Origin: Methanobrevibacter sp. V74
GTDB lineage: Archaea; Methanobacteriota; Methanobacteria; Methanobacteriales; Methanobacteriaceae
DNA length: 64,000 bases
Direction: 5' to 3'
Assembly: GCF_963082495.1 (NCBI RefSeq)
Contig: NZ_CAUJAN010000007.1
Coordinates: forward strand, 1 to 64,000
Positions 292 through 26,549 of this stretch are shown here, piece after piece. The notes below the pieces were generated by a model, which was not told the DNA's origin, ran no database searches, and saw only the letters and a program-made list of their open reading frames with translations. The first letter of the stretch is position 1. Every line of letters starts with the position of its first letter. A program made the position numbers and the translations under genes.

Positions 292-421
292 TGCCATAAC
301 TTTCGATATAACATTCCTGAAATTTCCGTGAAATATTGAGTAGATAAAAGTTGTAAACTATTTAATTTATAAAAACTAAAATAGTAATATCTTAAATACA
401 ATGTATGTTTTGGTGGTTCAA

Positions 422-784: not shown

Positions 785-843
785 ATTTTATCATTAGATC
801 TTTAAGATGAGCGATTTAATCAATACATGTATCAGTTGTGTAA

Positions 844-3800
844 ATGTCATATATTATAAAAAAACATAAATTCCTAAAAAATTTAGATAAGATTAAAGAA
901 ACCTGCATCTATAATGAATATGATATGCCAATTCTTTTAAAAGATTATCCTCTCAAAGATTTAACGGCAGTATTGAAAAGTGAATATGATTGGGAGTTAA
1001 AAAACTTCTTAAAAGCATTTCCAGAGTTTTCAGATATTGCAATTGATTTAAATGAAAATCAGAAAGAGATTGTTACTTATGGGGGAAATAAGTTTTTAAG
1101 CATAGAAGCGGGGCCGGGTGCAGGCAAAACCCGTGTTTTAATTGAAAAAGTTAATTATATGGTAAATGAGTTAGGGGTGGATCCTAAATCATTGCTAATT
1201 GTCACTTTTTCAACTAAAGCTGCAGATGAACTTCGAGAGAGATTGTCTGAAGGTGATTTGTTAAAAAGTGATGTTCAAAAGATGCATATATCAACTATTC
1301 ACTCTTTTTGCGAAAAGATACTTGAAGAAAATGGTCATGTTGGTTTAAATATCATTTCAGACGATGCCGGTGAGAAAAACTTGTTGTTCATTGGAAAGCA
1401 TATGGAAGAGCTTGGATTTGTTAAAGAATGTTACATGTCAAGTAGCAACATCAAATATATTGCCAATAAATATAAATGAATATTGCTCTTTCAGTGTTGA
1501 CACAGATAAGTTAATTGATTATATCACAGAAAATAGGCCAGTCAGCGAGGGATATGTCCACTTTTGTCCGTGAGCGAATGGAATTAAATGATGGAGAATA
1601 TCCTCATGATGAAGTTCGAAAAAATGATGAGTTTAAAGAGTCCAAGTATAATGCACAATATCTGCAAATCGCCAAATCCTATCCGATTTATGAAAAATAT
1701 CTTAAAGCGCGAAAAAGCAATTGACTTTGCACATCTACAAAAGGATGCATTAGAAATTGTCAAAAAAGATGGATTTAAAACACAGTTCACCAACATACTA
1801 ATTGATGAGTTTCAAGATACAGATCCTATGCAGATGGAATTGTTTGAGTATCTGATGAAACAAGCAAAATCATTTACAGTAGTAGGTGACATTAATCAAA
1901 GCATATATGGATTTAGAGGTTCAAACATTAATCCATTTACATATTTAGCTAAATATCATAAAGATAAATTCGAGTTTAAAAGCCTGACCACTAATTATCG
2001 CTCCACTCATGAAATCATCGATGTGTCTGAAGATTTCATTAAACATCAAAGACCAGTTGAATCCGCACTTGGAAAGGCTCAATGTGGTCGTGATGTAAAA
2101 TAATCATGTTTATTATTCTTTAAATAACTATGATGCTAAAAATTAATCGACTAAAGAATCATCACTTGATAGTGAAGCTGAAAACATTGTAAATATCATT
2201 AAATATTTGATTGAAAATGAAAAAATCAATAGATTGTCCGATATTGGCATTCTATTTCGTTCTCTTTCAAAAAGTACCTCACGATGTATCGGACCATTGC
2301 TTGAAAAATTAGAAGCGGAAAATATTAAATTTCAGGTCAATAACAATGATTTAATCAGTCAGGATGAAATTAAGTCAATTTTAACACTCTTTCACCATCT
2401 GGTTTCAGATGATGATCCTCATAGTCACAGGTTTAATAGATGGGAAAAAGACTGGCTGAATTTAAAGGCATATGCCAATCAGGTCTTGTTCAATTTATCT
2501 GATGAGACAAAAGAGATACTGATTAGCTTGCAGAATAAATTTGAAGAGGATGTTGTCAGGGCTGAAAATTATTTTTGGCTAAAAGACCATAATAGAGGAG
2601 GTAAAAAATCCTTCAAAACAGTATTTGCCCGTGATGAGGAAATGCTCATTAAAATATTTAATAGTGTTACAAGGCCGGTTTTAACAAACGATAACCTAAT
2701 TGAATATGGTATTGAAAATGAAGATGATTTGGAATTCTTTAGAAAATTAAATGAATTTAAAGACTCATTGTACTCTGAGGATTTTAAATTCTATGACAGG
2801 CCAACAGTTTCTGAGGTTTATTTAAAACTATTAACTGATGTTACTGGTTATTTGTCTGAAGATTTAATCTTAAGTGATGAAGGAGATATTATAATTAACA
2901 ACCTCTCAAAAATTACAGGTTTTCTTCAAACATTTGTTGACGTTAAGTTCAACCGGGACATTAGAGGTGCATTTTGGTTTGTATATAGAACCATTGAAGG
3001 ACATTCGGCTTTTTCTGATGAAAGTGATGCCATTCAAATAATGACTGTCCATCAGTCAAAAGGATTAGAATTCCCGGTTGTTATTATTCCCTCTCTGAAA
3101 AAAGACAATTTCCCAATGAAATATATCGATCCAAATCCAGATAATGGATGGATTTTTGGCCAGCCCGTTTATTACACTCCTGATGACTGTTTAAATTATC
3201 CCAAATTTGATAAGGAATTCGGGCCTGAACTGTCTCATAATATGGAAGAGGAAAGAGTTATTTATGTTGCAATGACTCGTGCAGAGGATACATTAATATT
3301 GTCTTCATTAGTGGAGGATATGAACCAGTCAAATCAAATCGCAATTGAACAAAGTGAATTTGAAAGACTTCCAAAAGGTCCGGACTGCATAGAAAAATGC
3401 AATTAATGAAAACTTAAATAAATGCAAATTAATTGACCCTGAAGATATGGACATCAATGTGGTGTATTGCAGGAAGGATGAAGAGGATGATGAATACTGT
3501 GTTGATTTAAGCTTCACTGCTTTGGAAAATTATAATAATTGTCCATTTAGATATAAAACTAGCTAACGGAGTTAATTTCACCATATCTGAAAAACAGGAG
3601 ATTGATGATGGGATTTTTGCCCACTATACACTTGAAGTTATCAACAAAAAAATAATTAATAATGGCAATGTCTTTATTGGTGAGGATGAGGTTGTTAAAA
3701 CAATAGAGGAATTATTTGAAAATTCAAATGATGAGTTAAAAGAAGAGGATCCTGTTGGGTATGAAAAACAACTTAACGAAATAATCGGCAACATTTATTC

Positions 3801-4240
3801 ATTATTATAAAAATTACGGTAAAAATATAAAAATACTTGATAGTGAATATCCCTTCTATTTAAAAGACAGAAACTATGCCCTTAATGGAGTCATTGATTT
3901 AATCTATGAAATTGATGGTAAATTGGGCATTATTGATTATAAGAATACTCGCTTAGAGGCCAAATACAAAGATAAATTTAAAAAGCAACTTCATTTATAT
4001 GTATTGGCATTAAGGGATCAAAATCAGGAATATGAATGTAAGGAAATTAGCGAACTTAAGGTTTACACTATTAAATCTAAAAAATTGATCGATTTCGAAA
4101 TCGATGAAGAATACATTAATGATTTAAAAGTTGAATTAGAGCAAGTCGCTTTCAATATTCATGAAAACAACTTTGGCTCCTGTAAATGTGGGGATTGTAA
4201 GTATTGCAGTTATAAAAGTATTTGCAATCAGGAAGTTTGA
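844..4240 (+). pseudogene. Decayed UvrD/AddA-type helicase with PD-(D/E)XK nuclease domain
   Basis: Fragments in several frames add up to one protein of about 1100 residues. In order I see a UvrD P-loop (AGPGAGKTR near 1114), DEFQDTD (near 1806), GDINQSIYGFRG (near 1886), the SF1 motif TVHQSKGLEFPVV (near 3046) and YVAMTRAEDTL (near 3262). Next come a nuclease core with GVID and IIDYKN (near 3888-3945) and a terminal cysteine cluster CKCGDCKYCSYKSIC, typical of an Fe-S-stabilised AddB/Cas4-like nuclease. At least five frame changes occur (near 1480, 1590, 2103, 3406, 3560 and 3810), so no full product can be made. It is probably a former ATP-dependent exonuclease, with the HIRAN gene as its upstream neighbour. 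Confidence 0.85.
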
Positions 4241-4401: not shown

Positions 4402-4635
4402 CTATATTTGATTTATCTCCAATTCAAATTCTTCAATTTCTGATTTAAAATCTGAAATTTGTGTGCTAGGTAATTCTAATGTTATTGATATTGCTGTTTC
4501 ATCATCTTGTTTTTGAGCATTCATTTTTAAAACATCATCTTCATATTCATAAATTTTCGCCAATACAGTTAGAACATCTTTATTTTTAATTTTACCTTCA
4601 ATGGAAATAATATCTCTTTTTATATTAACAAATGC
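4402..4635 (-). pseudogene. 77-codon in-frame extension beyond the TGA stop of the giant protein
   Basis: Immediately after the TGA stop (4638-4636) of the 1623-residue gene, the same frame stays open for 77 codons to a TAG at 4404-4402. The product reads like a small alternating strand/helix domain, with a stretch such as FVNIKRDIISIEGKIKNK followed by an acidic C-terminus. Its composition resembles coding DNA. No ATG, GTG or TTG lies near its beginning, and the first in-frame ATG is about 37 codons in. It is therefore more likely the severed C-terminus of the giant protein than a separate gene. Alternatives are stop-codon readthrough or a sequencing error at the TGA. Confidence 0.6.
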
Positions 4636-7600
4636 TCATTTTTGCTTTTCTTTTGGGGAAGAATTTATTGTATTGATTGGTTGAGCATTAAATAAAGTTT
4701 CTTTTGCTTTTTCCTGATTTATGATTCCCCAATCATGTCCATCTTTTAAAACTTTTTTATGCAATTTATAAATATTGGAATCCTTGATGGAGACATACTT
4801 CCCATCTATTCGTTTTCCATACACCCAAAGATTTCCAATCTTTCTAACCCATGCAATTCCAGTTTCATGATAGTGTCTTATTTGTATTGCATTTTTGTAT
4901 TTGTCAGGTAATGGGGATAATATATCATTATTTTTTACTGCCTTTTTTGGAATATCAAATGATTTTTGTATTGTTTTTTTGGGTATCTTATCTATTTTTG
5001 AAGGTTCGGGAAGTTTTTTATTGCATTCTTTCAATGTTTGCTTTGCTTTACTTAAATCTCTAACTCCCCATATATGGTTATTTTCTATTACAATATTATA
5101 AAGTTCGTAAATATCATTTTCTCTAAAATGAATTGTGTTTCCATCTTCAACTTTTGTATAGTTCCATTCATTGCCAATTTTATATACCCATGCAAATCCA
5201 GATGTATTGCCTTTAGAATTTTTTCTTAGTTTTTGTTTTATTTTAAGAGGAAGCGGTTTCAATATCTTATTGAACTTTTTATCGGAATTCCTCAATGTTT
5301 CTTTTGCTTTTATTAAATCTCTAACTCCCCAAATGAATTTTTCCTGAACAACTTCTTTGTGCAACTTACGAATATTTGAATCTTCAATGATGATTAACTC
5401 ACTATCTACAATTTTTTGATAGGAATATTCATTTTCAGTTTCACTTACCCATGCAAATCCTGTTTTTGTTTCATAAGCGACATTTTCCAATTCCCTCTCA
5501 ACATTTCCTGGTAGAGGATCAAGGATATTAATAACTGGATTATTTCCATTGTCTTCATCAGTTGTTTTTTCAGATTTAGTTTTGGCACTATAAATTTCAC
5601 CATGTGCTTGTGATAATGTTTTTAAAGCTTTATTTAGGTTAATTACTCCCCAACTATAGTTATTTTTAATAATGATTTCATGTAATTTATAAATATTTTG
5701 ATTTTTAATTGAAATTGGAACATTATTTTCAACATTATAATATTCCCATTCATCTTTATTAGGGTACACCCATCCGAAACCTGTTTCGTCAGGTTTATCA
5801 ATTTTCGCTTTAACCTTTGCGGGCAATTTTCTTAATATGTCATTTGTTTCTCTATTTATGACTTTTTTAGCTTTATTTAAATCAGTTACTCCCCAAATTA
5901 GATTACTTTCCATAACCTTATTGTAAAGGTTTATTATATTTTCATCGCTTAATACAATTGATTCGTTATTATTAATAGTTCGTATATATTTCCATTCATT
6001 CCCAGTTTTCCTTACCCATGCAATTCCAGTTGTTTTGTTCATGTTTCTTATGGAAGTTTTATATTTTCTGGGAAGGGGTGAAAAAATATTTCTATTCTTA
6101 TTTTTGGTGCAGTCTTCATCATTTGAATTTGATTCATTTTCACTTGATGGTGTAGTTATAATTATCTTATTTGCCTTTTCAAAATCCCTTATTCCCCATG
6201 TCAAATTTTGGGCGATGACTTTTTGGTGTAATTTTTCAATGTCGGAATCTTTTATTTTAATAGGTTTTCCGTCTATTATTCTGGAATAACTCCAATATCT
6301 GCTGGTTTTATTTACCCAAGCAATGCCTGTTTTATTAACTTTGTTTGATTTAAATGAATCTTCAAATTGTTTAGGTAAGGGGGACAGGATATCTTCAGCA
6401 GGCACTTCATCTATGGTTTTTGAGCCATTGATAGGTTTTGTTTCAATTTTTTGATTTAGGGTTTGTTTTGCTTTAGTTAAATCTCTAACTCCCCATTCCA
6501 AATTTTCACTAATTACTTTTTCATGTAATTTTTCTATTGTTTCTTCACTGATATTTATATGTTTTCTGTTTATTACCCTGGTATAGGAATATTTTTTTCC
6601 GGTTTTATTTACCCATGCAAATCCAGTACTTGTGCCTCTTGAATTCTTTTTGAATTTGTTTTCTAATTCATAGGATAATGGTGATAATATGTCTTTATTA
6701 ATTACTTTTTTGGGGATTTTAGGTTTTTTTCCTAAAGTTTTTTCGGCTTTACTTAAATTAATGACTCCCCAATCCAAATTGTTTTCAATAACCTTTTGAT
6801 GTAATTTTTCAATATCCGGAGCTTTAATTCGAATATTTTTTGTAGTTCTTGTATAATAATAGTAATTTCCAGAATGGCTTACCCATGCAAATCCGGTTTT
6901 TGTCCCTTTTTTGAATTTATTAATATCATGGGGTAATGGTGCTAAAATATCTTCATTATCTGCTATTTTATTTGGATTTTTTGTATTTTCACAATCACTA
7001 TAGAATTTTAAATGTTTTTTCGTAGCATATTTTCCAGCAGAATACCATTTTTTAATTTCAGCTGAATATTTTCCGTTTTCAATTTTTCTAGATGCTTCAT
7101 CGTGAGAATATCCCTCGTTTAATAGATTGATAAATTCATTTTTCACCTTTTCTTCATTGGAATTTGCTGTTTGTTTTAATATTTTACGAGTTTCCATATA
7201 TTTTTCGTAAAATTCATCATACGGTTTTTGACCTTGGGTTCCACGTGCAATCCAATTGCTTATTAGTTTCAATTCAATAGATGCGCTTTTAGCCGCTTCT
7301 TTTCTGGTTTTTCCATTCCTGATATTTTCTATAAATTTCTCACGAGCCATTATATTATGTTCATCATCATAATCATTAGATTTTTTATTAAGCGTAATCC
7401 GGTTTTCTATTTCAGATTCTTTGATTGATGCTTTTTTTGCAGATTCTTTTCTTGTGTTGTCTTTATGAATTGCATCTAATACAATATCCTTAGTTTTAGC
7501 CGATTTGGCAGTAGGTTTCTTTTGAGCTTTAATTTTTGTTTTTTCATTAAAATATTTATCTAAGAATTCTTCGCATGTTTCCTGTTTGGCCAATATATAT

Positions 7601-9507
7601 TTGTCTGTTTCATAATTTTTGATTAATAAATCATTTTCTAATAATGGCCATGTTTTAGCTTGAAGTAAGAATGTATTTGAGTAATATTTTTCTAGATCAT
7701 TCTCACTGTATTCTGTATCGTAATCAATATGGCTTAGTAGTTCTTTTAAATAACTTGCAGCATTTATTAGTTTTTTGCAATTTTTACAATTGTCCTCATG
7801 TCCATCAGGATTATTTTCAGATACTGGGAATTTAGAGATTTCCAATGTTTCACCGCATGTTGAACATGTTTTGGTTAATTTAACGGTATTTGTTGCAGAA
7901 TCTTTAATTTCAACACCGGATTCTTCAATAAATTCTTCAATATCCACTTTTGAGATTAATGAATACTTATTATTTTTTTCTTTTTTAATTAAATTAAATT
8001 CTTGAAGGGTCCATATATAATCCTGTGTTTGCATTCCGGTTAATCCAAGATTTTTCAAATCGTTTTTTTTAAAGAGAACTTCTGGTTCAATTGATAATAA
8101 TAATTCTTGTACAATATTTGCACAGCGCTGTTTTCTGCGACATCTCTTACATAGTTTTTCACTACTTTTTTTATTAATAGTTCTTCCACAGATTTCACAT
8201 GTTTTTTCACTTTGAGGTTTGATTTTTTCTTTAGTTTCACAATATTGTTTCATGTATGCATCATAAAAATCAATGTAATCTGCTTCGCCGTTTTTTCCCT
8301 GATTAAACCATTGTTTAATTTTAAATTTAGGTATTTTAATGGCTTTAATGGCTTCGTCATTATTTTTTCCTTCATTGATTAGATTTATGAACAGCTTAAT
8401 TTTATTCAATTCCTCTCTATTAACTGCCTTAAGATATGTGTTGTAAAATTCGCTGTAATCCTTATTGCCTAATTTTCCTTGTGTTTTCCAATTCTTAACT
8501 TTAAATTTTGGAATGTTCAGTATTTCAAAAGCTTCTTTATTTGTTTTACCTTCGTCAATTAATTTAATATATTCATTGATTAAATCGTTGTTTTTAGTTT
8601 TCTTTTCTGATGATTTTTCTTTTGTAATTTGGAGGTAGTCTTCATAAAAATCAATATACTCAGCTTCAGAATTTTTTCCGGTTAGAATCCATTTCTTTAA
8701 TTCTAAAGAAGTGATATTTGCTTTTTTAATAGCTTCTTTTTCTGTTTTTCCAGATTTAATTTCATCAAGAAATATGGTCATTTTCCTATGAGGATATGGA
8801 TTTTTAAGCATTAATTCTTTATATGTTTCATAAAAATGCATATATTTTTCATTACCTCTTTTTCCTTTAACATACCAGGCATCAACCGTTTTTGAATCAA
8901 TTTTAGCAATCTTTAAAGAGTGTTCATAATTTTTTCCGGCTTTCATGGAATTTAAAAACAGATTCATTGACAGATTTTTGGAGTTATCCTCCTGATTTTT
9001 ATTGGGTGTTTCAACAGGGGGTTTTAAAGAAGTGTTTTTTATTAATCCATATAGATTATCTGTAAAGTCTTCTTCTAATTTCCCTAATTTAATCATTGGC
9101 ATTTTATTTCTTAAACTAATTTCATATTGTTGGGCAATATCCATTTCTTCATTAAAATTAGGGTATCTCTGTTTTAAAATAGTTTTATTTAGGTATATGG
9201 TTAAATCCTTAGTAATCAATCCAAGTGAATCTTTATAGTCCTTTTTATCAAAATCAATCATTAATGAATTTTCAATTTCGCTAAATTTGTCCATATTCGA
9301 AGAATGTGTTCCGAAAAAATAAATGAATTTGGTATCTGTTTCACTGAATCCAAACCATGTATTTCTTGAATAATATAAATATCTGATACTTTTATTTAGC
9401 TTAATATTGTTCACTTCAGATATATGACTATTAAGTTTCTTGATGGAAGGCATTTTAGTAAATAATTTGTTGAATAAATGTTTATTTATTTGTTCTTGAT
9501 TACTCAT
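4636..9507 (-). CDS. Giant modular repeat protein, zinc fingers plus HTH-like and TG[FI]AWV repeats
   Basis: I do not recognise this 1623-residue protein as a whole. After a unique N-terminal domain (about 1-150) come four helical repeats (about 173-430) of the type GKT..EA...A.I....I..W...GK.G...Y.DFY..Y, which look like homeodomain-type HTH units. A zinc finger (CEICGR...CKRC, about 436-460), a winged-helix-like segment and a second zinc finger (CSTCGE...CKNC, about 546-580) follow. Two more HTH-like units lie at about 723-833. The C-terminal half holds eight 80-110 residue repeats with the signature LPxx...TG[FI]AWVxKxGNxWxY...I.KLH.KV....WGV..L.KAK.TL. There is no signal peptide or membrane segment, so it is probably cytoplasmic and nucleic-acid-binding. 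ATG 9507 was chosen over the upstream Met at 9615 because AAAGGAC precedes it and the longer form would overlap the divergent gene. Confidence 0.85.
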   Translation of the reverse strand: MSNQEQINKHLFNKLFTKMPSIKKLNSHISEVNNIKLNKSIRYLYYSRNTWFGFSETDTKFIYFFGTHSSNMDKFSEIENSLMIDFDKKDYKDSLGLITKDLTIYLNKTILKQRYPNFNEEMDIAQQYEISLRNKMPMIKLGKLEEDFTDNLYGLIKNTSLKPPVETPNKNQEDNSKNLSMNLFLNSMKAGKNYEHSLKIAKIDSKTVDAWYVKGKRGNEKYMHFYETYKELMLKNPYPHRKMTIFLDEIKSGKTEKEAIKKANITSLELKKWILTGKNSEAEYIDFYEDYLQITKEKSSEKKTKNNDLINEYIKLIDEGKTNKEAFEILNIPKFKVKNWKTQGKLGNKDYSEFYNTYLKAVNREELNKIKLFINLINEGKNNDEAIKAIKIPKFKIKQWFNQGKNGEADYIDFYDAYMKQYCETKEKIKPQSEKTCEICGRTINKKSSEKLCKRCRRKQRCANIVQELLLSIEPEVLFKKNDLKNLGLTGMQTQDYIWTLQEFNLIKKEKNNKYSLISKVDIEEFIEESGVEIKDSATNTVKLTKTCSTCGETLEISKFPVSENNPDGHEDNCKNCKKLINAASYLKELLSHIDYDTEYSENDLEKYYSNTFLLQAKTWPLLENDLLIKNYETDKYILAKQETCEEFLDKYFNEKTKIKAQKKPTAKSAKTKDIVLDAIHKDNTRKESAKKASIKESEIENRITLNKKSNDYDDEHNIMAREKFIENIRNGKTRKEAAKSASIELKLISNWIARGTQGQKPYDEFYEKYMETRKILKQTANSNEEKVKNEFINLLNEGYSHDEASRKIENGKYSAEIKKWYSAGKYATKKHLKFYSDCENTKNPNKIADNEDILAPLPHDINKFKKGTKTGFAWVSHSGNYYYYTRTTKNIRIKAPDIEKLHQKVIENNLDWGVINLSKAEKTLGKKPKIPKKVINKDILSPLSYELENKFKKNSRGTSTGFAWVNKTGKKYSYTRVINRKHINISEETIEKLHEKVISENLEWGVRDLTKAKQTLNQKIETKPINGSKTIDEVPAEDILSPLPKQFEDSFKSNKVNKTGIAWVNKTSRYWSYSRIIDGKPIKIKDSDIEKLHQKVIAQNLTWGIRDFEKANKIIITTPSSENESNSNDEDCTKNKNRNIFSPLPRKYKTSIRNMNKTTGIAWVRKTGNEWKYIRTINNNESIVLSDENIINLYNKVMESNLIWGVTDLNKAKKVINRETNDILRKLPAKVKAKIDKPDETGFGWVYPNKDEWEYYNVENNVPISIKNQNIYKLHEIIIKNNYSWGVINLNKALKTLSQAHGEIYSAKTKSEKTTDEDNGNNPVINILDPLPGNVERELENVAYETKTGFAWVSETENEYSYQKIVDSELIIIEDSNIRKLHKEVVQEKFIWGVRDLIKAKETLRNSDKKFNKILKPLPLKIKQKLRKNSKGNTSGFAWVYKIGNEWNYTKVEDGNTIHFRENDIYELYNIVIENNHIWGVRDLSKAKQTLKECNKKLPEPSKIDKIPKKTIQKSFDIPKKAVKNNDILSPLPDKYKNAIQIRHYHETGIAWVRKIGNLWVYGKRIDGKYVSIKDSNIYKLHKKVLKDGHDWGIINQEKAKETLFNAQPINTINSSPKEKQK

Positions 9508-9540
9508 TTTATGTCCTTTGCTTTGATTAAATATTTTAAC

Positions 9541-9570
9541 AATAACTTTATAATATATATTATAGTTATT
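9541..9570. promoter_or_regulatory. Nearly symmetrical bidirectional promoter
   Basis: Between the divergent starts at 9507 (minus) and 9602 (plus) lies a perfect 16-bp palindrome, TATAATATATATTATA. It is bracketed by AATAAC on the left and GTTATT on the right. Such a sequence offers an archaeal TATA box on both strands at plausible distances of about 30-60 bases from each start codon. The symmetry suggests that the giant repeat protein and the EVE/ATPase/helicase operon are expressed together. The promoter role is inferred from sequence and position only. Confidence 0.55.
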
Positions 9571-9601
9571 AACTATTAAATTTAGGGAGTAATGCATTAA
9601 T

Positions 9602-10369
9602 ATGGTTGAAGGCAATTCATTAAAAAAAGTGGATAATACTCATAAATATTGGTTTCATAGACTGGATAATCTTGATATCATTCCTAAAATTGATAAAGAA
9701 AAATGTATCGGGTCTGCTAAAAAACGTTCAGTTAAAATTAAAAAAATTAATCCGGGAGATAGGCTTTTTTTAGTTACAAAGAGAAAAAATACCATTGAAT
9801 TTTTTGGATATACTCAAGTTGAAGAAACATATATTGATGAAGAAGTGTTATACGGATATTATGAATCTAGAAAAAAACTGAAGCTTAAAGGAATTAAATA
9901 CTTTTCAAAGCCGGTTCCTACAAATGACATGGTTCAATATTTGGAATCTGAAAAAATTAAAAAGAGCAGTGCGAAGTTTTTTGGACAAGAATATAATGAG
10001 TTATCTAAAGAAGATTTTATACATATTAGAAAAAGATCTAATTTGGTTAACTATTTACCATCCTATTTAGAAGAATACACAAGACCACTAAAAGAGTTCA
10101 TGTTAAATACAATTAAAGTTGTCTATAAAATGATAAGCCATTACGAAAACCGAAATCAGATAGAAATAAAATATTTTTTAAGAATTTTAAAGAAATTCTT
10201 TGATGCCTATGAACTTAATAAAAGTATTACAGAAATTCAGGAATTTTATGGAAGGCATGCAATAGAATTGGGATATAGGCATATTCCATCAAGAGATCCG
10301 GATAAATTTGTGCCATTATATTTGTCTAATGGAGAAAAAAAGAATTTTACATATGTTATTTTAGAATAG
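9602..10369 (+). CDS. EVE/PUA-like domain protein of the ATPase-helicase operon
   Basis: The N-terminal half of this 255-residue protein looks like an EVE (PUA-like) domain. It has KYWFHRLDN near the start, a basic INPGDRLFLVTKRKN strand (about 50-65) and a FFGYTQVEETYID strand pair, in the order expected for EVE. EVE domains bind modified bases in nucleic acids and are often found in defence loci. The C-terminal half is helical and unrecognised. It is the first gene of a tight operon: 7 bases separate its stop from the next ATG. GGGAG at 9585-9589 may be the ribosome binding site. The EVE assignment needs a profile search; the operon placement is clear. Confidence 0.6.
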   Translation: MVEGNSLKKVDNTHKYWFHRLDNLDIIPKIDKEKCIGSAKKRSVKIKKINPGDRLFLVTKRKNTIEFFGYTQVEETYIDEEVLYGYYESRKKLKLKGIKYFSKPVPTNDMVQYLESEKIKKSSAKFFGQEYNELSKEDFIHIRKRSNLVNYLPSYLEEYTRPLKEFMLNTIKVVYKMISHYENRNQIEIKYFLRILKKFFDAYELNKSITEIQEFYGRHAIELGYRHIPSRDPDKFVPLYLSNGEKKNFTYVILE

Positions 10370-10376
10370 TGATAAT

Positions 10377-11657
10377 ATGGATTATGAAGATGTATTGATA
10401 GCTCTAAAAAGTGGAAATGTTCCATCACATGGAGCAAAAAACTTATGTATGGGTCGTGAAAAGGAAGTAGAAGAGTTTGACAGGTTGCTTGATAAAGTTG
10501 ATTCTGATGAAAAAGCGATTGTCAAATTCGTTAATGGGGAATATGGTGCAGGCAAATCCTTCTTTTTAAAAGTTGTTGAGGAAATAGCATTTGAAAAGAA
10601 TTTTGTCGTTTCATGGATTACTTTAAGTAATGATATTCCATTTAATAAAATTGATGTTGTTTATAAAAATATTGCCCGTAACTTGAAATGTAAAACCGGC
10701 ACTTCCCTAGACCATATTATTGACCGATGGATAACCGGATTAAAGATGATGGCTTTTGAAGAGTCTTCAAATCCCCAGAAACAAAATGAATTGGTCCGTA
10801 AAAACTTATATAATGATTTAGCTGATACAAGAGAGCATGCAAATTCATTTGCCATTGCAATTGAGAATTATAATAAACTGATGAACGAAGAAAATTATCA
10901 AACGGCAGCAAATGCTAAGGCTTGGCTTAGAGGGGATTCTAACATTCCGTATACTGAAAAAAAGAAATTCGGTGTTAAGGGTGATGTTACTAAAGAAAAT
11001 GCAATCAACTTTTTAGAGGCATTATCTATTTTTGTTAAATCAATAGGATATTCTGGATTGATTGTTTTGATTGATGAGGCTGAATTTATTATGAATTTGC
11101 ATACTAAAAAACTTAGAGATATTGCTTATAATTATATTAGGGATATTTATGATAATTGTAATTTGGGAAAATTCCAAAATACACTATTTTTGTTTGCCGG
11201 AACTCCTGAATGGTTTGAACAGCCTCAAAAAGGTATTCCTTCATATGAAGCATTGGATGATAGGCTTAAAACAGTTTTGGATACTGATTTGGAAGATATG
11301 AGAAAACCTATTTTTAATTTAAAAGGGTTTGATGAAGAAAATCTCAAGGAAATTGCAGGCAAGCTTACAATCATGCATGAAGAAGCTTATAATTGGAAAG
11401 CGTCTGATAAAATCAATCCGGTTTTAGAGGATATTGTTTCTATTCATTTAACTGATGCTAGCCTGACTGGAGGTAAGGTAACTCCAAGAACATTCATCCG
11501 TTCATTTATTAGTGTATTGGATACGGTACAACAAAATCAAAGTTTCTTCAACGATTCTCAAAAAATCATTGAACTATTTGAAAAACAAGAAACACCTGGT
11601 GGTTTCGGAGATGATATTGACTTTGAGGATATAGATGAATTTGATGATGACTGGTAG
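10377..11657 (+). CDS. BrxD-like (DUF2791-type) P-loop ATPase
   Basis: This 426-residue protein matches the BREX-associated BrxD/DUF2791 ATPases. It begins with a short helical lead (ALKSGNVPSHGAKNL), then has a Walker A GEYGAGKS at residues 54-61 and a Walker B LIVLIDEAEF near 230. A sensor-like FAGTPEWF follows, and the protein ends in a very acidic tail (DIDFEDIDEFDDDW). BrxD-type ATPases accompany an Lhr-like helicase in some BREX subtypes, and that helicase is the next gene, 5 bases downstream. No methylase, PglZ phosphatase or protease is nearby, so membership of a standard BREX system is not supported. The predicted activity is ATP-driven remodelling of, or loading onto, DNA. Confidence 0.75.
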   Translation: MDYEDVLIALKSGNVPSHGAKNLCMGREKEVEEFDRLLDKVDSDEKAIVKFVNGEYGAGKSFFLKVVEEIAFEKNFVVSWITLSNDIPFNKIDVVYKNIARNLKCKTGTSLDHIIDRWITGLKMMAFEESSNPQKQNELVRKNLYNDLADTREHANSFAIAIENYNKLMNEENYQTAANAKAWLRGDSNIPYTEKKKFGVKGDVTKENAINFLEALSIFVKSIGYSGLIVLIDEAEFIMNLHTKKLRDIAYNYIRDIYDNCNLGKFQNTLFLFAGTPEWFEQPQKGIPSYEALDDRLKTVLDTDLEDMRKPIFNLKGFDEENLKEIAGKLTIMHEEAYNWKASDKINPVLEDIVSIHLTDASLTGGKVTPRTFIRSFISVLDTVQQNQSFFNDSQKIIELFEKQETPGGFGDDIDFEDIDEFDDDW

Positions 11658-11662
11658 GTAAA

Positions 11663-13852
11663 ATGAGTCAAGATGGTTTTGAAATCAATGGAAGACTGTT
11701 GCATTTTCTATCAAATATATTGGGTTGGAGAGAATTAAATTCAATACAGAGAAAAGCCATTCCTAGTGTATTAAACCATGAAAACACATTGATTCTTGCT
11801 CCAACCGCATCGGGTAAAACTGAAGCCGCATTGATACCAATATTTTCTGAGATACTTGATAATAATCTGGAATCTTGCAGCGTATTATATGTATCTCCCC
11901 TTAAAGCTTTGATTAATGATATGCATAATCGTGTTGAAAAATGGGGAAATCATTTTGATTTGACTGTCACTAAATGGCATGGGGATGTAACTAGAGATAA
12001 AAAAGACAAGTTCACTAAAAATCCCACAGATTTTTTATTAACCACACCTGAATCTCTTGAAGTAATTTTAATGAATAGGAGTTCCGGTGTAAAAGAACGC
12101 GTTTTTAAAAATATCAAATTTATTTTAATTGATGAAATTCATTATTTTGCCGCATCTGATAGGGGAGTTCAACTTAACTCACTTTTAAATAGAATTTCCC
12201 AATATGCTCCTAATGCATCTATTATTGGACTGTCGGCTACTGTAGGAAATCCTAAATTAATATCTCAATGGGTTAGTTTAGATAAACCTGCAAAAATAAT
12301 TCAGGATAATGAAGGACGTAAATTACAATATAAAGTGTTTGATTTGCCCCATTATGCACTTTCAAAAGTTTTAAAAAGATATGTTGACAGAAAGGTTTTA
12401 ATTTTTGCTAATTCTCGTAAAGTTGCTGAAACCACTTATCTTAAACTTAAAAAAGATATTAAAATGGGGAATATATTTATTCACCATGGTTCTATTAACA
12501 AGGATATTCGTGAAGAAAATGAAGACAGGTTTAAAGAAGTAAAATATGGATTTATGGTTGCAACAACCACACTGGAATTGGGAATAGACATTGGTGATAT
12601 AGATATAGTTGTACAATTAACATCACCTAATGAAGTAAGTTCATTTTCACAAAGAATTGGTAGAAGCGGAAGACGTAGTAAGGTTCAAAGAACTATTTTA
12701 CTTTCACAAGGATTCAACTTGCTGGTATCATTAGCTGAAGTAATGTTGTATCATGAAAGTGAAGTTGAAAAAATATCCGTTTCAAAAAAATCCATAGATA
12801 TCCTATTCCACCAAATACTGAGCTGTGTTTATGAAAAAGGAAATGTTAACTATAAAAGCTTATATGATGAATTGAATAAGTGTTATGCATTTTCAGGAAT
12901 TTCTTTTAAGGAATATGTAACTTTATTAAAGGAAATGAAAGAAAGAGATATGTTGAACATTAGAAATAACAATTTGACCTTGGGTTATCAGTTTGAAAAA
13001 GACTTTGGCCAATGTAATTATAAAAATTTCTTTTCAGTATTCGCACCAAGATTTGAATATTCAGTTTTTGAGGGAAATAATGAAGTTGGAACGCTGGATA
13101 TTATATATGCAGTTGATTTAGGTGATGGGGATCAATTTAATCTTGCAGGTAAATTATGGCAAGTAATGTCAATAAATCATGGGAGGTATAAAGTTCAAGT
13201 AATTGAAACTGAACTTAATAAAGAAAAAATACCAAGTTGGAACTCCGGCGGAGTTCCCCTTTCACCATTAATTGCTAATAAGATATATGAAATATTGCAA
13301 GGGGATTTTGATGAAAAATTTTTAAGGCCTTTTGAGAAAGATGCTCGGAAAAATATTGAACTTGCAATCGAAGCGGCTCAAATGGACGGTTTTAGTGAGG
13401 GAATCATTCCTGTTGAAATAAATAATTCAAATGAAGTTTATATTTATACTTTTGCCGGAGATAAGGCCAACATATTATTATTGAAAATATTTGAAATGTA
13501 TTATGAACTTAAAAATCCATTCACTTCACCGATCTATATTTCATTTAAAACAGAGGAACATCTCTCTGTTGGGGATTTTGAAGGTGTTATTTATGATTTG
13601 GAAAATATATTGTCCCAAAGCGAAACCGAAGCGATGCTTGATGATTTAACAGTTTCATTTAAAAAAAATAAATTTATGGAGTATCTGCCTAAAGAAGTTA
13701 AGGGTTATCTGAAAATGAATTTAATATTTGATAAACGCGCATTGCTTGAAGCAACAGAGGATAAAAGTCTTTATTTCATTGATAATTCCATGTTTAGGAA
13801 AGTGATTATGGGCTTTCGAAAAAATCAGTATTTGGATGCTGAAGAGAAATAA
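11663..13852 (+). CDS. Lhr-like superfamily II helicase, BrxHI type
   Basis: The 729-residue protein has a complete set of SF2 motifs. They are Walker A APTASGKTE (about 47-55), DEIH (about 156), GLSATVG (about 190), IFANSRKVAET, TTTLELGIDIGD and QRIGRSGRRSK (about 330). The Lhr-type D-E-I-H box and the long C-terminal region place it with Lhr-like helicases such as BREX BrxHI. It follows the BrxD-like ATPase by 5 bases, a pairing also seen in BREX. It is much shorter than full-length Lhr, which agrees with the BrxHI type. The likely substrate is DNA, but RNA cannot be excluded. Confidence 0.8.
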   Translation: MSQDGFEINGRLLHFLSNILGWRELNSIQRKAIPSVLNHENTLILAPTASGKTEAALIPIFSEILDNNLESCSVLYVSPLKALINDMHNRVEKWGNHFDLTVTKWHGDVTRDKKDKFTKNPTDFLLTTPESLEVILMNRSSGVKERVFKNIKFILIDEIHYFAASDRGVQLNSLLNRISQYAPNASIIGLSATVGNPKLISQWVSLDKPAKIIQDNEGRKLQYKVFDLPHYALSKVLKRYVDRKVLIFANSRKVAETTYLKLKKDIKMGNIFIHHGSINKDIREENEDRFKEVKYGFMVATTTLELGIDIGDIDIVVQLTSPNEVSSFSQRIGRSGRRSKVQRTILLSQGFNLLVSLAEVMLYHESEVEKISVSKKSIDILFHQILSCVYEKGNVNYKSLYDELNKCYAFSGISFKEYVTLLKEMKERDMLNIRNNNLTLGYQFEKDFGQCNYKNFFSVFAPRFEYSVFEGNNEVGTLDIIYAVDLGDGDQFNLAGKLWQVMSINHGRYKVQVIETELNKEKIPSWNSGGVPLSPLIANKIYEILQGDFDEKFLRPFEKDARKNIELAIEAAQMDGFSEGIIPVEINNSNEVYIYTFAGDKANILLLKIFEMYYELKNPFTSPIYISFKTEEHLSVGDFEGVIYDLENILSQSETEAMLDDLTVSFKKNKFMEYLPKEVKGYLKMNLIFDKRALLEATEDKSLYFIDNSMFRKVIMGFRKNQYLDAEEK

Positions 13853-14015
13853 ATCGCATAAATCAGTCAAACAATGAACTATAACTTAAAATATACATTA
13901 TTTCACAACAGGGGATTTATCTTCCTTAGATTATAAAAATTTAGAGAGATCCGTTTTAGGTGAAATCCTGAGTGAAAGAGCATATATATATATTCAATTA
14001 AAATATACTATTATA

Positions 14016-14717
14016 ATGGAACTGAAAGATTTCTTTAATTATTCAAATGAAACCTATGAACAGAATATGGATTTATTGGAGGATTATGATTTAATCAATC
14101 CATTAGGTTCACCAAATAAACAATTTTTAAAGTTTCTAAAAGCAAAACACCTTGATATTAAAAAGGATAAAATAATTCCCGAGTTAATTGAAGAGTTTGA
14201 AAGTTCCATGGATTCTGTTAATATTAGATTGGCTAAAAAGCAAAAAGAAAAAGAAATTATTTTCAAGCAAAGAAAAGTCTGGATTAATATTCCCGCTGAC
14301 GATGAGCCGTTAGGCAGTGATTTAATCCTGGAATCTGATGGCATAATCATTGATGAAACAGGTCAGAAAATATTATATGTTGATATGCTTGATATTGAAA
14401 TAGCTCCTGGAGGATGGTCTAAAAAGACATTTATAATATCTGCAAGTGAGGGCAGGGCAATTTTTGAGGTTAATGAAAGTAAAGCCATTCCTTTAAAAGA
14501 AATAATTGAGGACAATATTTCCAATCAAAATCATGATGAGTTTGATGATCTTTTAGACTTATATTCATTATTTGAAGCGGGTGAAATCTCTAAAAAAGAA
14601 TTTGATATTAGAAAAGACATAATTTGCAGTGATGATAGGTATTGTACTGACTGTGGTAAAAAACTAGATTCAAGTTCACTATTCTGTCCCAATTGCGGCC
14701 ATCAGGTTTCAGACTAA
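14016..14717 (+). CDS. PH/SHOCT-like protein with C-terminal zinc ribbon
   Basis: This 233-residue protein has three visible parts. A helical N-terminus is followed by a strand-rich middle (about 85-160, with SDLILESDGIIIDE and ILYVDMLDIEIA) that resembles a bacterial PH-type domain. Next is a short helix pair DLLDLYSLFEAGEISKKEFD typical of SHOCT modules (about 175-195). A terminal zinc ribbon CTDCGKKL...FCPNCGHQ closes the protein. Such architectures are common in Methanobrevibacter, with unknown roles. It lies 163 bases after the helicase on the same strand. The same frame is open for about 40 codons upstream of the ATG without an alternative start codon. Confidence 0.6.
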   Translation: MELKDFFNYSNETYEQNMDLLEDYDLINPLGSPNKQFLKFLKAKHLDIKKDKIIPELIEEFESSMDSVNIRLAKKQKEKEIIFKQRKVWINIPADDEPLGSDLILESDGIIIDETGQKILYVDMLDIEIAPGGWSKKTFIISASEGRAIFEVNESKAIPLKEIIEDNISNQNHDEFDDLLDLYSLFEAGEISKKEFDIRKDIICSDDRYCTDCGKKLDSSSLFCPNCGHQVSD

Positions 14718-15216
14718 ATAAAATCAGAAAGAAGTAGGCAGTCTTGTGCTTTTTAAATATAATGGCAAAGACACAATTTAATTATATTGGTGAATTATTA
14801 CTGTAGACTTAAAGCCCTATATTTTGAGATTGTGTGTTATTTGCATATGTGCGTGTTTTACATCTGTAATGTAGCAAATAGTTAGGGAGTTATCCTAATA
14901 AATTAAATATTATAAATTCCTCATTATAAAACTTAATAGGGTAATTTATCTTAATATCATGTGTTTTATTTAATAATTACTGAATCTACGATGTGTCTTG
15001 CCATCAGATGTTATCTATTCATGGGATAACTTTGAAAAAATGAGGGGGACTTTTTCAAGTGCCTCTCATTCATATGTGAAATATGTAATACATTGGGAGG
15101 AGTATGTTTGTTTACATATTCTAACGCAATAGATATATTGTCACATTAATCAGTTATTCAATTTAAAGTATATATAATGATTTTTCATCGAAATAATTTA
15201 GGATAAACAAAATAAT
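14718..15216. other. Intergenic stretch without a recognisable gene
   Basis: About 500 AT-rich bases lie between two convergent genes. An open stretch of roughly 48 codons ends at about 15129 (reading ...YSWDNFEKMRGTF...), but it lacks a good start and matches nothing I know. I see no tRNA, convincing repeat or hairpin terminator here. Confidence 0.4.
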
Positions 15217-15972
15217 TCAATAGGGGGTTAATTCAAATAAACATTCATCATCTCCCATTGAATAGCATTTGCTTTCAATGATTTTTAATTTAAAATTAAA
15301 GTAATTCTCAAAAAGTCCTTTAAAGATTCCATTTACAATATCGCAGCTGGATTTTCCTGTAATTGGTGTATTTTTACATTCAAAGCAATTTTTACAAGTT
15401 ATTTTAATATCTTCATCTATATTGAAATTCAATTCTCCCAGCTTATTTTCATACCAGTGCCGTTTGATGTTTTCTGTATATTTTTTCAAATCCTCCTCGT
15501 GTAATTGTAAGGATAATTCTTTTCCCATATAATTTCCAATTGATTTTAAAACAGGGCTGATTTCAATGTTATATAAGTGAAGAATAGCCTTTAGTGTGGT
15601 TATAATCTTAATATTACTTTTAAGATCTTCATTTTTTATAAATTCTTCTATTATCTCTTCCATTTTATTTTCAGATATTTTTTTTGCTTTATTGTATGTT
15701 TTTGTATTTATAAAAAAGATTTTTTTCCGATTGTCATTCGGATTCAGTTTAAAGTCAACAAGACCTATTTCACGTAGACTTTTAAGGTGAATTGAGATGC
15801 TGGTTTTAGATTTTGAGGTGTTTTCAACAATGTCTTCAAAGCTCATTTCATTATCATTTAAAAGGGATAATATTTCGTATTTCATTGGGCTTTTAAGGAT
15901 ATCAATGTCAATAAAATCCTTATCGGGTTTATTTTCATCAACTGGGATTTGATTTAAATTTGAGGGGTTCAT
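15217..15972 (-). CDS. MsvR-like regulator: ArsR-type winged helix plus V4R domain
   Basis: The protein has 251 residues. An ArsR-type winged helix spans about 25-95 (SPMKYEILSLLNDNEMSFED, then TSISIHLKSLREIGLVDFKL). It is followed by a linker and a C-terminal V4R domain with conserved cysteines (CKNCFECKNTP, SSCD, ESKCYSMGDDECLFEL). This is the architecture of the methanogen redox-sensing regulator MsvR, in which cysteine oxidation changes DNA binding. ATG 15972 is preferred over the Met at 16011 because GGAGG stands 11 bases upstream. A close paralogue lies at 43792-44565. The target genes are unknown, and the gene is transcribed away from the TPR gene. Confidence 0.8.
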   Translation of the reverse strand: MNPSNLNQIPVDENKPDKDFIDIDILKSPMKYEILSLLNDNEMSFEDIVENTSKSKTSISIHLKSLREIGLVDFKLNPNDNRKKIFFINTKTYNKAKKISENKMEEIIEEFIKNEDLKSNIKIITTLKAILHLYNIEISPVLKSIGNYMGKELSLQLHEEDLKKYTENIKRHWYENKLGELNFNIDEDIKITCKNCFECKNTPITGKSSCDIVNGIFKGLFENYFNFKLKIIESKCYSMGDDECLFELTPY

Positions 15973-16131
15973 ACAAGTTACTTCCTCCTTACATATAATT
16001 TGACATTTCAAATTTAAATATTTTGTTTAACCTAATATAATAAGAGTTGTTGTATTTATACTTACCTTAAATTAGTTTCATTAAATTTTAATTATTTTCA
16101 GTGTCTAAAACTAATTTTCAATTAATTTTCG

Positions 16132-16149
16132 CTAGTTAATTTTAACTAG
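16132..16149. promoter_or_regulatory. Perfect inverted repeat, possible operator
   Basis: CTAGTTAA and TTAACTAG form a perfect 8-bp inverted repeat with a 2-base spacer. It lies about 15 bases upstream of a TATA-like ATTTATATAT (16164-16173) in front of the TPR gene, inside the divergent region with the MsvR-like gene. It could bind a dimeric regulator. The half-site TTAACTA recurs in the palindrome at 29095-29116. Confidence 0.45.
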
Positions 16150-16218
16150 AAGATAATATATACATTTATATATCATAAAACCACAAACAATATATATCAA
16201 ACATTTAATGTGATAACC

Positions 16219-17388
16219 ATGACCAAAAATATCAGAAAAGAATTAAATGAAGCAAAAAAAGCATACCAATCTAAAAATTATGAAGATGCTTTAAATATTT
16301 ATGAAAAACATTTCATTGAAAATCCTGAAAATTTAAATGAATGGGATAAGATTTTTTACAGCTGGTCTTTATATCAGATATACATTAAGGACTGTGAGGA
16401 TGAGGATAAACTTTTCCAAGCGGCTGAAACCGTTACCGAGTTAATTGAACAAGAAGATTTAACCAAAAAATCGGTTTGCGCCTATACTTTCTCTGTTTTC
16501 AAAGTTTTAGATTATCTATATGCTCAAAAGGATTATTATACTTTAATCGTTTGGTTGGAAAAAATCGACTCTAGCTTATTAGACCAAAATAGGTATGAAA
16601 AAGACGATAGGGTATTTAGGTCTAGAAAGGAAAAATACTTCGATTACGCAACCAAGTCCTACTTTGAATGTGATGACTTTGAAAGGTGTATTGAAGTTTC
16701 AAAAGAGGCACTTTCATCACTTAACAAGTACACCAACAACAGCGATATTTGGTATCGTTGGAGAATAGCCAAATCACTAAAAGAATTATTTAAAAATAAA
16801 GAAGCATTAATCTACTTAAATGAAGTTTTAAAAGTTAAAAAAGATTGGTTTGTCTTTAAAGAAATCGCTGAAAACTATTATATTCTGAAGGATTGTAAAA
16901 AAGCCCAAAAATATCTCTGCGATGCGGTTCTTACAAATGATCCAATTAGAATTAAAGTTAACTTGTATTATTTGGCTTATAAAATCCTTAAAGACATAAA
17001 TCCTGATATTGCCCATAAGCACATTGAGTTATTCTATGCTATTAAAATGGAAAATGACTCTAAAGTGCCTGAGGATATTGGAGATTTATTGATTGAAGAT
17101 GAACATTTGGATAAAAAAGTATTGGAACGTGAAATCAAAGATTACTGGACTGAGTTTAAATTTAAAGACAAGAAATTACAATACGGCACAGTTACTAAAA
17201 TCTTTGAACATGGCAAATCCGGATTCATTACCTCTGATGATAATGAATCTGTTTACTTTAACGTTTATGAGTTTAAAGAGGGGAAAGCTAGTTTAGGTCA
17301 ATATGTATCATTTTTTACTGAAAAATCATTTGATAAAACTAAAAACCGGGAATCAGTCAGAGCCATTCATATTAAAGCGCAATTATAA
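16219..17388 (+). CDS. TPR protein with C-terminal cold-shock-like OB domain
   Basis: The 389-residue product is mostly paired helices of TPR type (for example AKKAYQSKNYEDALNIYEKH near the start), filling about residues 1-310. The last 70 residues look like a cold-shock/OB fold: QYGTVTKIFEHGKSGFITSD, then VYFNVYEF, LGQYVSFFTE and RAIHIKAQL. This suggests a protein that binds RNA or single-stranded DNA while scaffolding partners through its TPRs. I used ATG 16219 because GTGAT just before it matches the anti-SD; the in-frame GTG at 16210 would use that same sequence as its start. It probably has its own promoter (TATA-like at 16164-16173). Confidence 0.7.
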   Translation: MTKNIRKELNEAKKAYQSKNYEDALNIYEKHFIENPENLNEWDKIFYSWSLYQIYIKDCEDEDKLFQAAETVTELIEQEDLTKKSVCAYTFSVFKVLDYLYAQKDYYTLIVWLEKIDSSLLDQNRYEKDDRVFRSRKEKYFDYATKSYFECDDFERCIEVSKEALSSLNKYTNNSDIWYRWRIAKSLKELFKNKEALIYLNEVLKVKKDWFVFKEIAENYYILKDCKKAQKYLCDAVLTNDPIRIKVNLYYLAYKILKDINPDIAHKHIELFYAIKMENDSKVPEDIGDLLIEDEHLDKKVLEREIKDYWTEFKFKDKKLQYGTVTKIFEHGKSGFITSDDNESVYFNVYEFKEGKASLGQYVSFFTEKSFDKTKNRESVRAIHIKAQL

Positions 17389-17519
17389 GAGTCAGCACAG
17401 CATGACCCTAATTTTTGATTTTTTAAAAATTCAATGGTAAATCCATAGAGGCGTCTGTAAATTGAGGATGCAAATGTTAAATGTGTTCCCTGATGTAAAT
17501 TAAAAAAGGGATGGTAACG

Positions 17520-17833
17520 ATGAGTAGTAGAGAAAATAACCATGATGAAAAGTTTATTAAAGAAAGAGATGAATATGAACAAGTATTTTTCTCACAGATA
17601 ATTGAAGATGTGGATGAAATTGATGGATTAGATATGTTGATTTCTGAGGAGGTTTATGATGACTTTGATTTTGGACCATCTCTGGCGGATCTTCGTTTAG
17701 AAGAGATATATTTTGCTGATATGAATTAAAGTTTAGAGATGAAGAAGATTTAGATTGCATGGAAGACTATGATTATCCTGAAGGGGTTGATGAAAATCTT
17801 AATGGTCAAATTTTTAAGATTCGAATTCCTTAG
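17520..17833 (+). pseudogene. Small acidic protein gene with a frameshift
   Basis: The frame starting at ATG 17520 (GGGATGG just upstream) gives a very acidic product of about 70 residues that stops at 17729. The sequence immediately after the stop continues with similar acidic coding character in a neighbouring frame (FRDEEDLDCMEDYDYPEG...) up to a TAG at 17831-17833. A single-base indel near 17720-17730 would join the two into one protein of about 104 residues. I do not recognise the family. Two overlapping small genes are the alternative. Confidence 0.4.
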
Positions 17834-18104
17834 AAACAATATTGCTTTAAAAAACAATTGATGAGTTAATTCTTGAGCATAAATATGCCGAGTCATTTTG
17901 ATGATTGATGGCTCATTTACTATTTACATAGTAGAAGTATATATCTACTTTATCAATTGGGAATCAAATTTAAAGTTAGAGAAATTTTATTAAAATGTTT
18001 TTAATTAATAGCTAAATTGCTATTTTCTTATTAATACTCTATTAAAAAAGATATCTTAAATAAAAAACAATAGAAAATATACCTAGTAAATACTTTAGAG
18101 AATT

Positions 18105-18386: not shown

Positions 18387-18526
18387 ATAATATGGTTTAT
18401 ATTAGGTTAATAACATTTTTAGTTACTTTATAGTGAATAAATATTAAATAGATTATTAATATATTATTAATATATATAAATTTTTATTAACAATATTCTT
18501 TTAAAATATATAATAAGGGTTAAAAA

Positions 18527-20978: not shown

Positions 20979-20979
20979 A

Positions 20980-26541: not shown

Positions 26542-26549
26542 GTGAAAAA

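Follow-up and report, generated by a model that had tools for sequence, protein, structure and literature searches.

A conserved EVE-BrxD-helicase module with a divergent array protein in Methanobacteriales, a candidate third system built on the BrxD-BrxHI pair

The ATPase BrxD and the helicase BrxHI are known as a pair from two described systems. In BREX type 2 (PglW, BrxC, PglX, PglZ, BrxD, and BrxHI), they have been called a tightly linked dyad in which BrxD is proposed to load the helicase, and type 2 BREX is reported in no archaea (PMC12839542). Shango (SngABC), which is antiphage in Pseudomonas aeruginosa, is described as consisting of TerB, a helicase, and an ATPase only (PMC10250203). 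A further gene set, PbeABCD (CxC ABC-ATPase/DndE-anchored), has effectors of other protein families, PbeA being described as an HKD nuclease-superfamily 2 (SF2) helicase and PbeC as a CxC-type ABC ATPase (PMC10853773). Here, we describe a module from the methanogen Methanobrevibacter sp. V74 in which a pair of the BrxD-BrxHI type is combined with an EVE-domain protein and a giant modular protein. The window that was analyzed comprises 64,000 nucleotides (nt; GCF_963082495.1, NZ_CAUJAN010000007.1, positions 1 to 64,000) and is the start of a 95-kb contig (G000:C7; G, C, and L numbers are our handles for genomes, contigs, and loci) in a genome of 2.3 Mb.

The four module genes are intact in the list of open reading frames (ORFs) and occupy window positions 4636-13852. 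The EVE, BrxD, and helicase genes form a head-to-tail operon (9602-13852) with intergenic gaps of 7 and 5 nt, and the gene for the giant, which starts with an ATG, lies divergently on the opposite strand. The 94-nt region between both start codons contains a TATA-like stretch and thus is probably a two-way promoter. An earlier note on this DNA had proposed precisely this set, i.e., a giant repeat protein divergent from an EVE-like protein, a BrxD-like ATPase, and an Lhr-like helicase, and the domain searches described below agree with it for all four genes.

The arrangement is conserved in other archaea. A search of 151 genomes of the phylum (PF10923, E <= 1e-20; EVE profile, E <= 1e-5) yielded a strong BrxD in 21 genomes and the EVE profile in 23, with all the 21 included. 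The EVE gene is located directly upstream of brxD, on the same strand and with no gene between, in 21/21 cases, the largest gap being 245 nt (G005), and the helicase follows BrxD in 20/21 (in G035, it is cut by the contig end). Beyond the window genome, EVE-BrxD is found in 20 genomes of two families, accompanied by the helicase in 19/20 and in 16/20 by a relative of the giant, hereafter the array protein, that carries zinc-finger/winged-helix (Zn-wHTH) modules; thus, the co-occurrence in other archaea that the earlier note proposed to look for does exist. One more genome, G119, whose contig ends inside EVE so that BrxD is not seen, enters only the counts given out of 22; G047, with a weak EVE match (3.6e-6) in a 3495-amino acid (aa) frame and no strong BrxD, was excluded from the module count. 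A Zn-wHTH array protein adjoins the module in 18/22 loci (truncated G119 locus included), and three of the four loci without it (G035, G126, and G127) end at a contig edge just upstream, the fourth being G128. It is placed head-to-head in 16/18 loci, and it follows the helicase in G029 and G101. Two of these 16 loci, G038 and G051, have a DUF1232 gene leading the EVE operon and encode another array protein after the helicase. A DUF1232 protein adjoins the module in 14/22 loci, and no DUF1232 of this type is present in the window genome.

A strong BrxD was found in 14/138 genomes of the window's own family (26/138 matched at E <= 0.001, of which the 14 full-length matches with E < 1e-90 were counted and 12 weak partial ones were dropped). 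In the second family, the module is present in 7/8 genomes of the group g19, which is probably Methanothermobacter. All seven show the same order: DUF1232, an oppositely oriented gene for a Zn-wHTH protein (477-735 aa), EVE, BrxD, the helicase, and MarR- and MATE-type genes. Since the array protein of these minimal loci is so small, the giant of the window looks like an expanded form of it. A scan of named contigs with BrxD, which covers close relatives only, returned three loci, the closest two being labelled Methanobrevibacter and 81% and 71% identical.

The EVE-like identity put forward in the earlier note is weak when a single sequence is used (NCBIfam PRK00809, 1.7e-5, far under its cut-off; no match against the PDB), and firm when a 12-row profile is compared with the UPF0310/EVE structures (PDB 2p5d, 8.2e-14; PDB 1wmm, 1.3e-6). 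The Pfam EVE model matches 4/12 members of the family, with a best value of 9.3e-4, and leaves the window member unmatched. These proteins share the domain with the known EVE/UPF0310 proteins, but differ from them in their fixed link to BrxD and in an extra C-terminal domain of about 100 aa, in which H223 and R227 never vary and D228 and K231 are conserved in at least 90% of the 12 aligned rows (residues counted from the codon at 9614). In G051, the EVE protein carries a fused stretch of wHTH type (Zn-wHTH hidden Markov model (HMM) match, E <= 1e-3). As variants of the EVE gene, L036 and L037 contain two EVE-type copies within one 502-aa protein, whereas those of L041 and L045 are extended at the N terminus, with a wHTH-type match in the L045 extension. 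The main text of the EVE survey PMC7641849 contains zero occurrences of lhr, brex, methanobrevibacter, duf2791, and methanogen.

The ATPase matches Pfam PF10923 with an E-value of 6.5e-95, and the stretches GEYGAGKS and LIVLIDE of its translation are what we take to be the Walker A and Walker B motifs; a search against the PDB returned nothing useful (best value, 0.92). The helicase contains DEAD (2.7e-38), Helicase_C, and WH_Lhr (7.2e-9) domains, and its TASGKT, DEIH, SAT, and QRIGRSGR stretches presumably represent the corresponding helicase motifs. In PADLOC, the BREX models of the pair score best, with the Shango models second for each protein: 253 bits for BrxD and 228 bits (227.5) for SngB in the case of the ATPase, and 476 bits for BrxHI and 440 bits (439.7) for SngC in the case of the helicase. 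The helicase has, in addition, a generic PADLOC hit to PbeA; a Pbe model was the best match of none of the eight window proteins submitted to PADLOC, beyond which the window genome was not searched for Pbe.

Despite sharing the pair with BREX type 2, the module differs from it in its partners. PglZ (PF08665) was detected in 1/22 module genomes, G135, where it lies on contig C96 and the module on C83, and it is absent from the window genome; the control search for PglZ was positive in 2/14 named genomes. In addition, the BrxD of the window reaches 249 bits against the NCBIfam model BREX_BrxD (NF033438), short of its equivalog cut-off of 350. As far as these searches reach, pglZ just outside the window, which the earlier note had named as a sign of an ordinary BREX locus, is not found; PglX was not searched genome-wide. 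The same note had considered a relation to tellurium-resistance (Ter) neighborhoods. This lead proved right in a precise sense, because ATPase and helicase also form a pair, in this order, in Shango, where a TerB-domain protein takes the first place that EVE has here; nevertheless, the TerB family itself (PF05099) was found in 0/22 module genomes, TerB_N and TerB_C not being searched genome-wide (TerB control search positive in 4/14 named genomes). The module also differs from Shango in the added array protein and in its separate BrxD and helicase clades.

Maximum likelihood trees with a midpoint root were built from 16 (BrxD) and 15 (helicase) methanogen rows and 9 and 6 outside rows; the trees and the identity comparison given below were made without G145 and G146 (both g19) or the contig-cut loci G035, G126, and G127. 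For BrxD, the methanogen, Shango, and BREX groups have support values of 97/99, 100/100, and 100/99, and for the helicase, of 100/99, 100/100, and 100/100, respectively. On these small trees, for which long branches meeting (BrxD) and an uneven residue make-up in several rows were flagged, BrxD and the helicase fall into a third clade beside BREX and Shango.

BrxD matches in plasmids amount to 691 records, all below 60% identity. We inspected nine plasmid loci from the 30 listed among these records, and the annotated gene directly before BrxD encodes PglZ or an alkaline phosphatase in four of them (H1, H2, H3, and H9) and a TerB-domain protein in five (H4, H8, H23, and H25; H22 by Pfam). The ATPase-then-helicase order is also present in these Shango/BREX plasmid loci where both genes are annotated. 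Among archaeal plasmids, that of the halophilic archaeon DL31 (L138) carries a Shango-type TerB_N/TerB_C-BrxD-helicase set followed by metallophosphoesterase, SMC, NurA, and DUF87 genes. The EVE protein had no match among plasmids or viral contigs, and BrxD had none among viral contigs.

The combination of EVE-BrxD-BrxHI with an array protein is not described in the available parts of PMC11096173, PMC10250203, PMC10952713, PMC12839542, PMC7641849, PMC12458937, and PMC10853773. Thus, the module is real, conserved, and, as far as our literature searches reached (subscription papers and supplements being outside their scope), undescribed, as had been supposed for this locus; the ATPase-helicase pair itself is known from BREX and Shango.

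In the giant protein, HMMs trained on its own and related repeats delimit seven helix-turn-helix (HTH) repeats, two Zn-wHTH modules, and eight repeats that we name 'GFAWV' (Table 1). Against PHROG profiles, it matches endonuclease VII (4.5e-5) besides a terminase-small-subunit HTH (5.5e-9) and a Lar-like zinc finger (1e-8). Inspected by eye, the Zn-wHTH alignment has visible cysteine pairs and no HNH-type histidine pair, and a profile search of this module against the PDB gave zinc-finger resemblance only (best, 1.1e-3). The Zn-wHTH module is common to all 18 array proteins adjoining the module, whose content ranges from 2 to 11 Zn-wHTH modules, 0 to 10 HTH repeats, and 0 to 8 GFAWV repeats, and whose length reaches 2207 aa. 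Judging by this composition, the giant is probably a DNA-binding array. An AP2 identity of the GFAWV repeats, suggested by their pattern, was dropped because neither Pfam (0/13 repeats match PF00847), nor hhalign (probability of 0.9%), nor the PDB profile search (no AP2 structure; best match to MJ0781, 2.5e-3) supports it. In the array protein of G005, the Zn-wHTH modules are followed C-terminally by three repeats of AP2 type, of which one stretch reaches 9e-7 with Pfam, just under the cut-off. There was no match to the giant among viral contigs or phages, nor to the Zn-wHTH module among viral contigs.

Table 1. Position of the module genes and of the repeats of the giant protein in the window.
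Feature	Position	Strand	Basis
Giant modular protein, 1623 aa	4636..9507	-	ORF, start codon 9507, repeat HMMs, PHROG matches
Eight 'GFAWV' repeats (aa 859-1605)	4693..6933	-	Repeat HMM, E 6e-25 to 2e-31
Three more HTH repeats (aa 680-839)	6991..7470	-	Repeat HMM, E 2e-8, 3e-19, 1e-10
Two Zn-wHTH modules (aa 435-652)	7552..8205	-	Repeat HMM; CxxC at aa 437, 453, 548, 574
Four HTH repeats (aa 188-418)	8254..8946	-	Repeat HMM, E 6e-16 to 3e-18
Divergent intergenic region, 94 nt, central TATA-like stretch	9508..9601	.	Read from sequence
EVE-domain protein, 255 aa, with conserved C-terminal domain	9602..10369	+	Profile search
BrxD-type AAA+ ATPase, 426 aa	10377..11657	+	Pfam, PADLOC, NCBIfam
BrxHI/Lhr-type SF2 helicase, 729 aa	11663..13852	+	Pfam, PADLOC

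The array protein changes faster than its partners. Between the window and G079, BrxD is 81% identical, the helicase 66%, EVE 58%, and the giant 35%. The ratio of nonsynonymous to synonymous substitution rates (dN/dS) of the array protein is 0.34-0.59 in 6/6 g19 pairs, and 0-0.20 for EVE, BrxD, the helicase, DUF1232, and MATE in the same pairs; these come from six g19 genomes and are not all independent, five of them being among four genomes. Repeats also appear to be gained or lost, since in G038 and G051 (BrxD 93% identical) three GFAWV repeats pair in order and one extra unit is present in G038 only. No such pairing is visible between the GFAWV repeats of the window and G079, where the window repeats resemble each other about as much as, or more than, they resemble those of G079. 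Within the HTH repeats, W24, G28, and F38 are nearly fixed and several of the positions expected in the recognition helix are among the most variable ones, an assignment that we infer from the sequences and that should be read knowing that surface positions vary anyway.

One close relative has lost most of the module. In the G147 locus, the MATE gene shares 99.6% identity with its G146 counterpart, and what is left beside it (L148) is a BrxD reduced to its last 111 residues, along with a helicase whose alignment breaks near its end; DUF1232, the array protein, and EVE gave no match in the 20 kb examined. This loss is recent, and the module is dispensable in G147.

Outside g19, the flanks of the module are little shared. 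We compared 19 loci (12 from Methanobacteriaceae and 7 from g19; ORFs of at least 110 aa, match threshold of 1e-20), omitting ORFs that best match module genes and leaving out G035, G119, and the window, the contigs of G126 and G127 being short. Among the 12 Methanobacteriaceae loci, a flanking gene, of GmrSD type, is shared in one pair only (G038-G059). A separate tblastn search with the window flanks showed that a HIRAN gene near the locus is common with G101, and that both also share a few common genes tens of kb from the locus. Type IV restriction genes are among the neighbors: GmrSD-type genes lie at L034, L041, and L043, and McrB- and McrC-type genes neighbor the module in L039 (we call McrC the combination of DUF2357 and PDDEXK_7).

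Relatives of the array protein also occur in Pbe-type gene sets, either at their head or fused or adjacent to them. PbeA/PbeC-type genes are found near L039 and L080, and the array protein of G029 lies beside Pbe-type genes. G135 encodes a 2207-aa protein in which HEAT repeats and a PbeA-type helicase are joined to eleven Zn-wHTH modules, with a PbeC-type gene after it. G094 and G100 have no EVE-BrxD; there (loci L077 and L078), an array protein is encoded first on the PbeA-PbeC strand, some 200-230 nt ahead of PbeA. The PbeA-PbeC genes of L077 score 737 and 404 bits in PADLOC, and L078 holds the counterpart identified by BLAST; a D12 methylase is located beside the L077 gene set and has a homologue in L078. 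The stretch L039:2113-17200 (G135) is, as a whole, a defence island with McrB/McrC-type genes and EVE-BrxD lacking the helicase.

The earlier note had extended the system to a fifth gene, ZnR (14016-14717), which we excluded because its close homologues (61% in L129 and 57% in L130) sit in another island of Methanobrevibacter type, with DUF1232 and an 845-885-aa HTH/Zn-wHTH protein, and none was found beside the helicase in other loci. A different zinc-ribbon protein, of 569 aa, follows the helicase in G079, so a zinc-ribbon neighbor might still be a loose theme. The TPR gene of the L129 island matches the window gene at 16210 (BLAST), and other genes of the ZnR island resemble, by eye from their first residues, window genes further right. 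The window region 14016-26876 is itself a conserved Methanobrevibacter-type island (ZnR, a TPR protein, an AAA protein, a helicase, and small genes), homologous to L127-L130 and partly to L136, islands that encode DUF1232 and HTH/Zn-wHTH proteins (about 845-900 aa) and no BrxD; the window region includes, at 15217-16011, an MsvR-type transcription factor (220.5 bits against an NCBIfam equivalog cut-off of 220).

On the other side of the module, positions 401-4240 hold a HIRAN gene and then a UvrD-type helicase with a nuclease-like end (844-4240) in four broken pieces, so the decayed helicase-nuclease noticed before is indeed there. A 916-aa UvrD-PDDEXK relative adjoins DUF1232 in L135:6594-9344, and L038 has a HIRAN gene as well, about 3.5 kb ahead of EVE. 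The CRISPR remnant of the earlier note holds in part: at the contig edge, positions 49-285 contain three clear repeat copies spaced 73-74 nt, one 73-nt unit being exactly repeated, and by eye a possible fourth degenerate copy. The repeat is CRISPR-like, which does not prove a CRISPR identity, and it might be the end of an array that is located on another contig.

Taken together, we read the locus as a conserved module of Methanobacteriales that probably acts against viruses or plasmids, the third system on the BrxD-BrxHI pair beside BREX and Shango, a reading that we consider about as likely as not. The constant gene set and the separate clades count for it. The patchy distribution of BrxD, the little flank sharing, the type IV restriction neighbors, the fast array protein, the repeat turnover, and the loss in G147 are defence-like signs that also speak for this reading, as do the arrays in Pbe-type sets, the G135 fusion, and the wHTH-EVE fusion of G051. 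In the proposed mechanism, the array protein would use its HTH and Zn-wHTH modules to bind DNA and would pick the target, and the EVE protein would sense a base modification marking DNA as foreign or self; modified-base binding is attributed to this EVE domain by analogy with its family only. BrxD, as an ORC/Cdc6-type AAA+ ATPase, would assemble at the site and load or activate the helicase, which might then track along and open the invading DNA, so that replication is stopped or the DNA is exposed to other nucleases. DUF1232, where present, may be an accessory of the array protein.

Several observations weigh against this proposal. The defence function is a candidate one, and no nuclease was recognized in the module. 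The dN/dS of the array protein is below 1, which indicates faster change and not positive selection, and the two segments with the highest dN, in the one pair examined by segment, include linkers. Neither the EVE C-terminal domain nor the GFAWV repeats have a recognized fold. EVE-BrxD has no helicase next to it in G135, and G128 shows EVE-BrxD-helicase with no array gene on either side (about 8.8 kb read upstream and 6.8 kb downstream). Of the 33/151 genomes with a DUF1232 of this type, 18 do not carry the module. The HTH and GFAWV repeats occur in the arrays of G094 and G100 too, but the Zn-wHTH module does not. Finally, the g19 module stands beside the same MarR-MATE genes in 7/7 cases, which is less like a mobile defence island.

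The strongest rival accepts EVE-BrxD-helicase as the working system and makes the divergent array protein a transcription regulator only, as often found opposite defence operons. This would fit its predominant head-to-head placement (16/18), its HTH and Zn-wHTH domains, and the small array proteins of g19 (just 477-735 aa). However, sizes of up to 2207 aa count against it, and so do the G135 fusion of an eleven-module array to a helicase of PbeA type, the related arrays that come first in the PbeA-PbeC sets of G094 and G100, and the arrays encoded after the helicase in G029 and G101; this explanation is possible, if on the unlikely side. The kinship of the helicase with Lhr and ligase-associated helicases, and the retention of the module with one conserved flank in 7/8 g19 genomes, might rather point to a housekeeping role in repairing DNA or restarting replication, with an ORC/Cdc6-like loader, an Lhr-type helicase, and EVE and the array protein as sensors of damage or structure. 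Such a role appears decidedly improbable for a gene set whose strong BrxD is found in just 14/138 own-family genomes, that is mostly lost in G147 next to a MATE gene almost identical to that of G146, that includes a fast-changing array protein, and that has type IV restriction neighbors at four loci.

Still less credit is due to the idea that the module is simply Shango or BREX type 2 in a local form with only its partners diverged, which we consider very improbable. The PADLOC scores for BrxD, SngB, BrxHI, and SngC (253, 228, 476, and 440 bits) and the ATPase-then-helicase order of the annotated plasmid loci speak in its favor, but it has to face the counts of TerB (0/22) and PglZ (1/22, on another contig), the distance of BrxD from the NCBIfam equivalog cut-off (249 vs 350 bits), and the separate clades in both trees.

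Going beyond the antiviral or anti-plasmid module itself, the giant might be a rearrangeable protein targeting platform, in which Zn-wHTH, HTH, AP2, or GFAWV units are gained, lost, and diversified between lineages, and which would serve two unrelated effectors, EVE-BrxD-BrxHI and the Pbe-type helicase with its ABC ATPase. We regard this extension as speculative and rather unlikely; if true, the platform would be a guide-free protein counterpart of target selection by CRISPR or by the specificity subunits of restriction-modification systems.

To our knowledge, few antiviral systems besides CRISPR and restriction-modification have been characterized in methanogens. The minimal g19 version of the module, with five genes, is small enough for direct testing, and genetic tools and the phages psiM2 and psiM100 exist for Methanothermobacter. 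If the array protein sets specificity, the module would provide a new way to build target recognition. The methanogen genes represent a third BrxD-BrxHI lineage with its own partners, EVE and the array protein, and therefore the pair may be an exchangeable engine for different sensors, i.e., PglZ-type proteins, TerB, or EVE plus an array protein.

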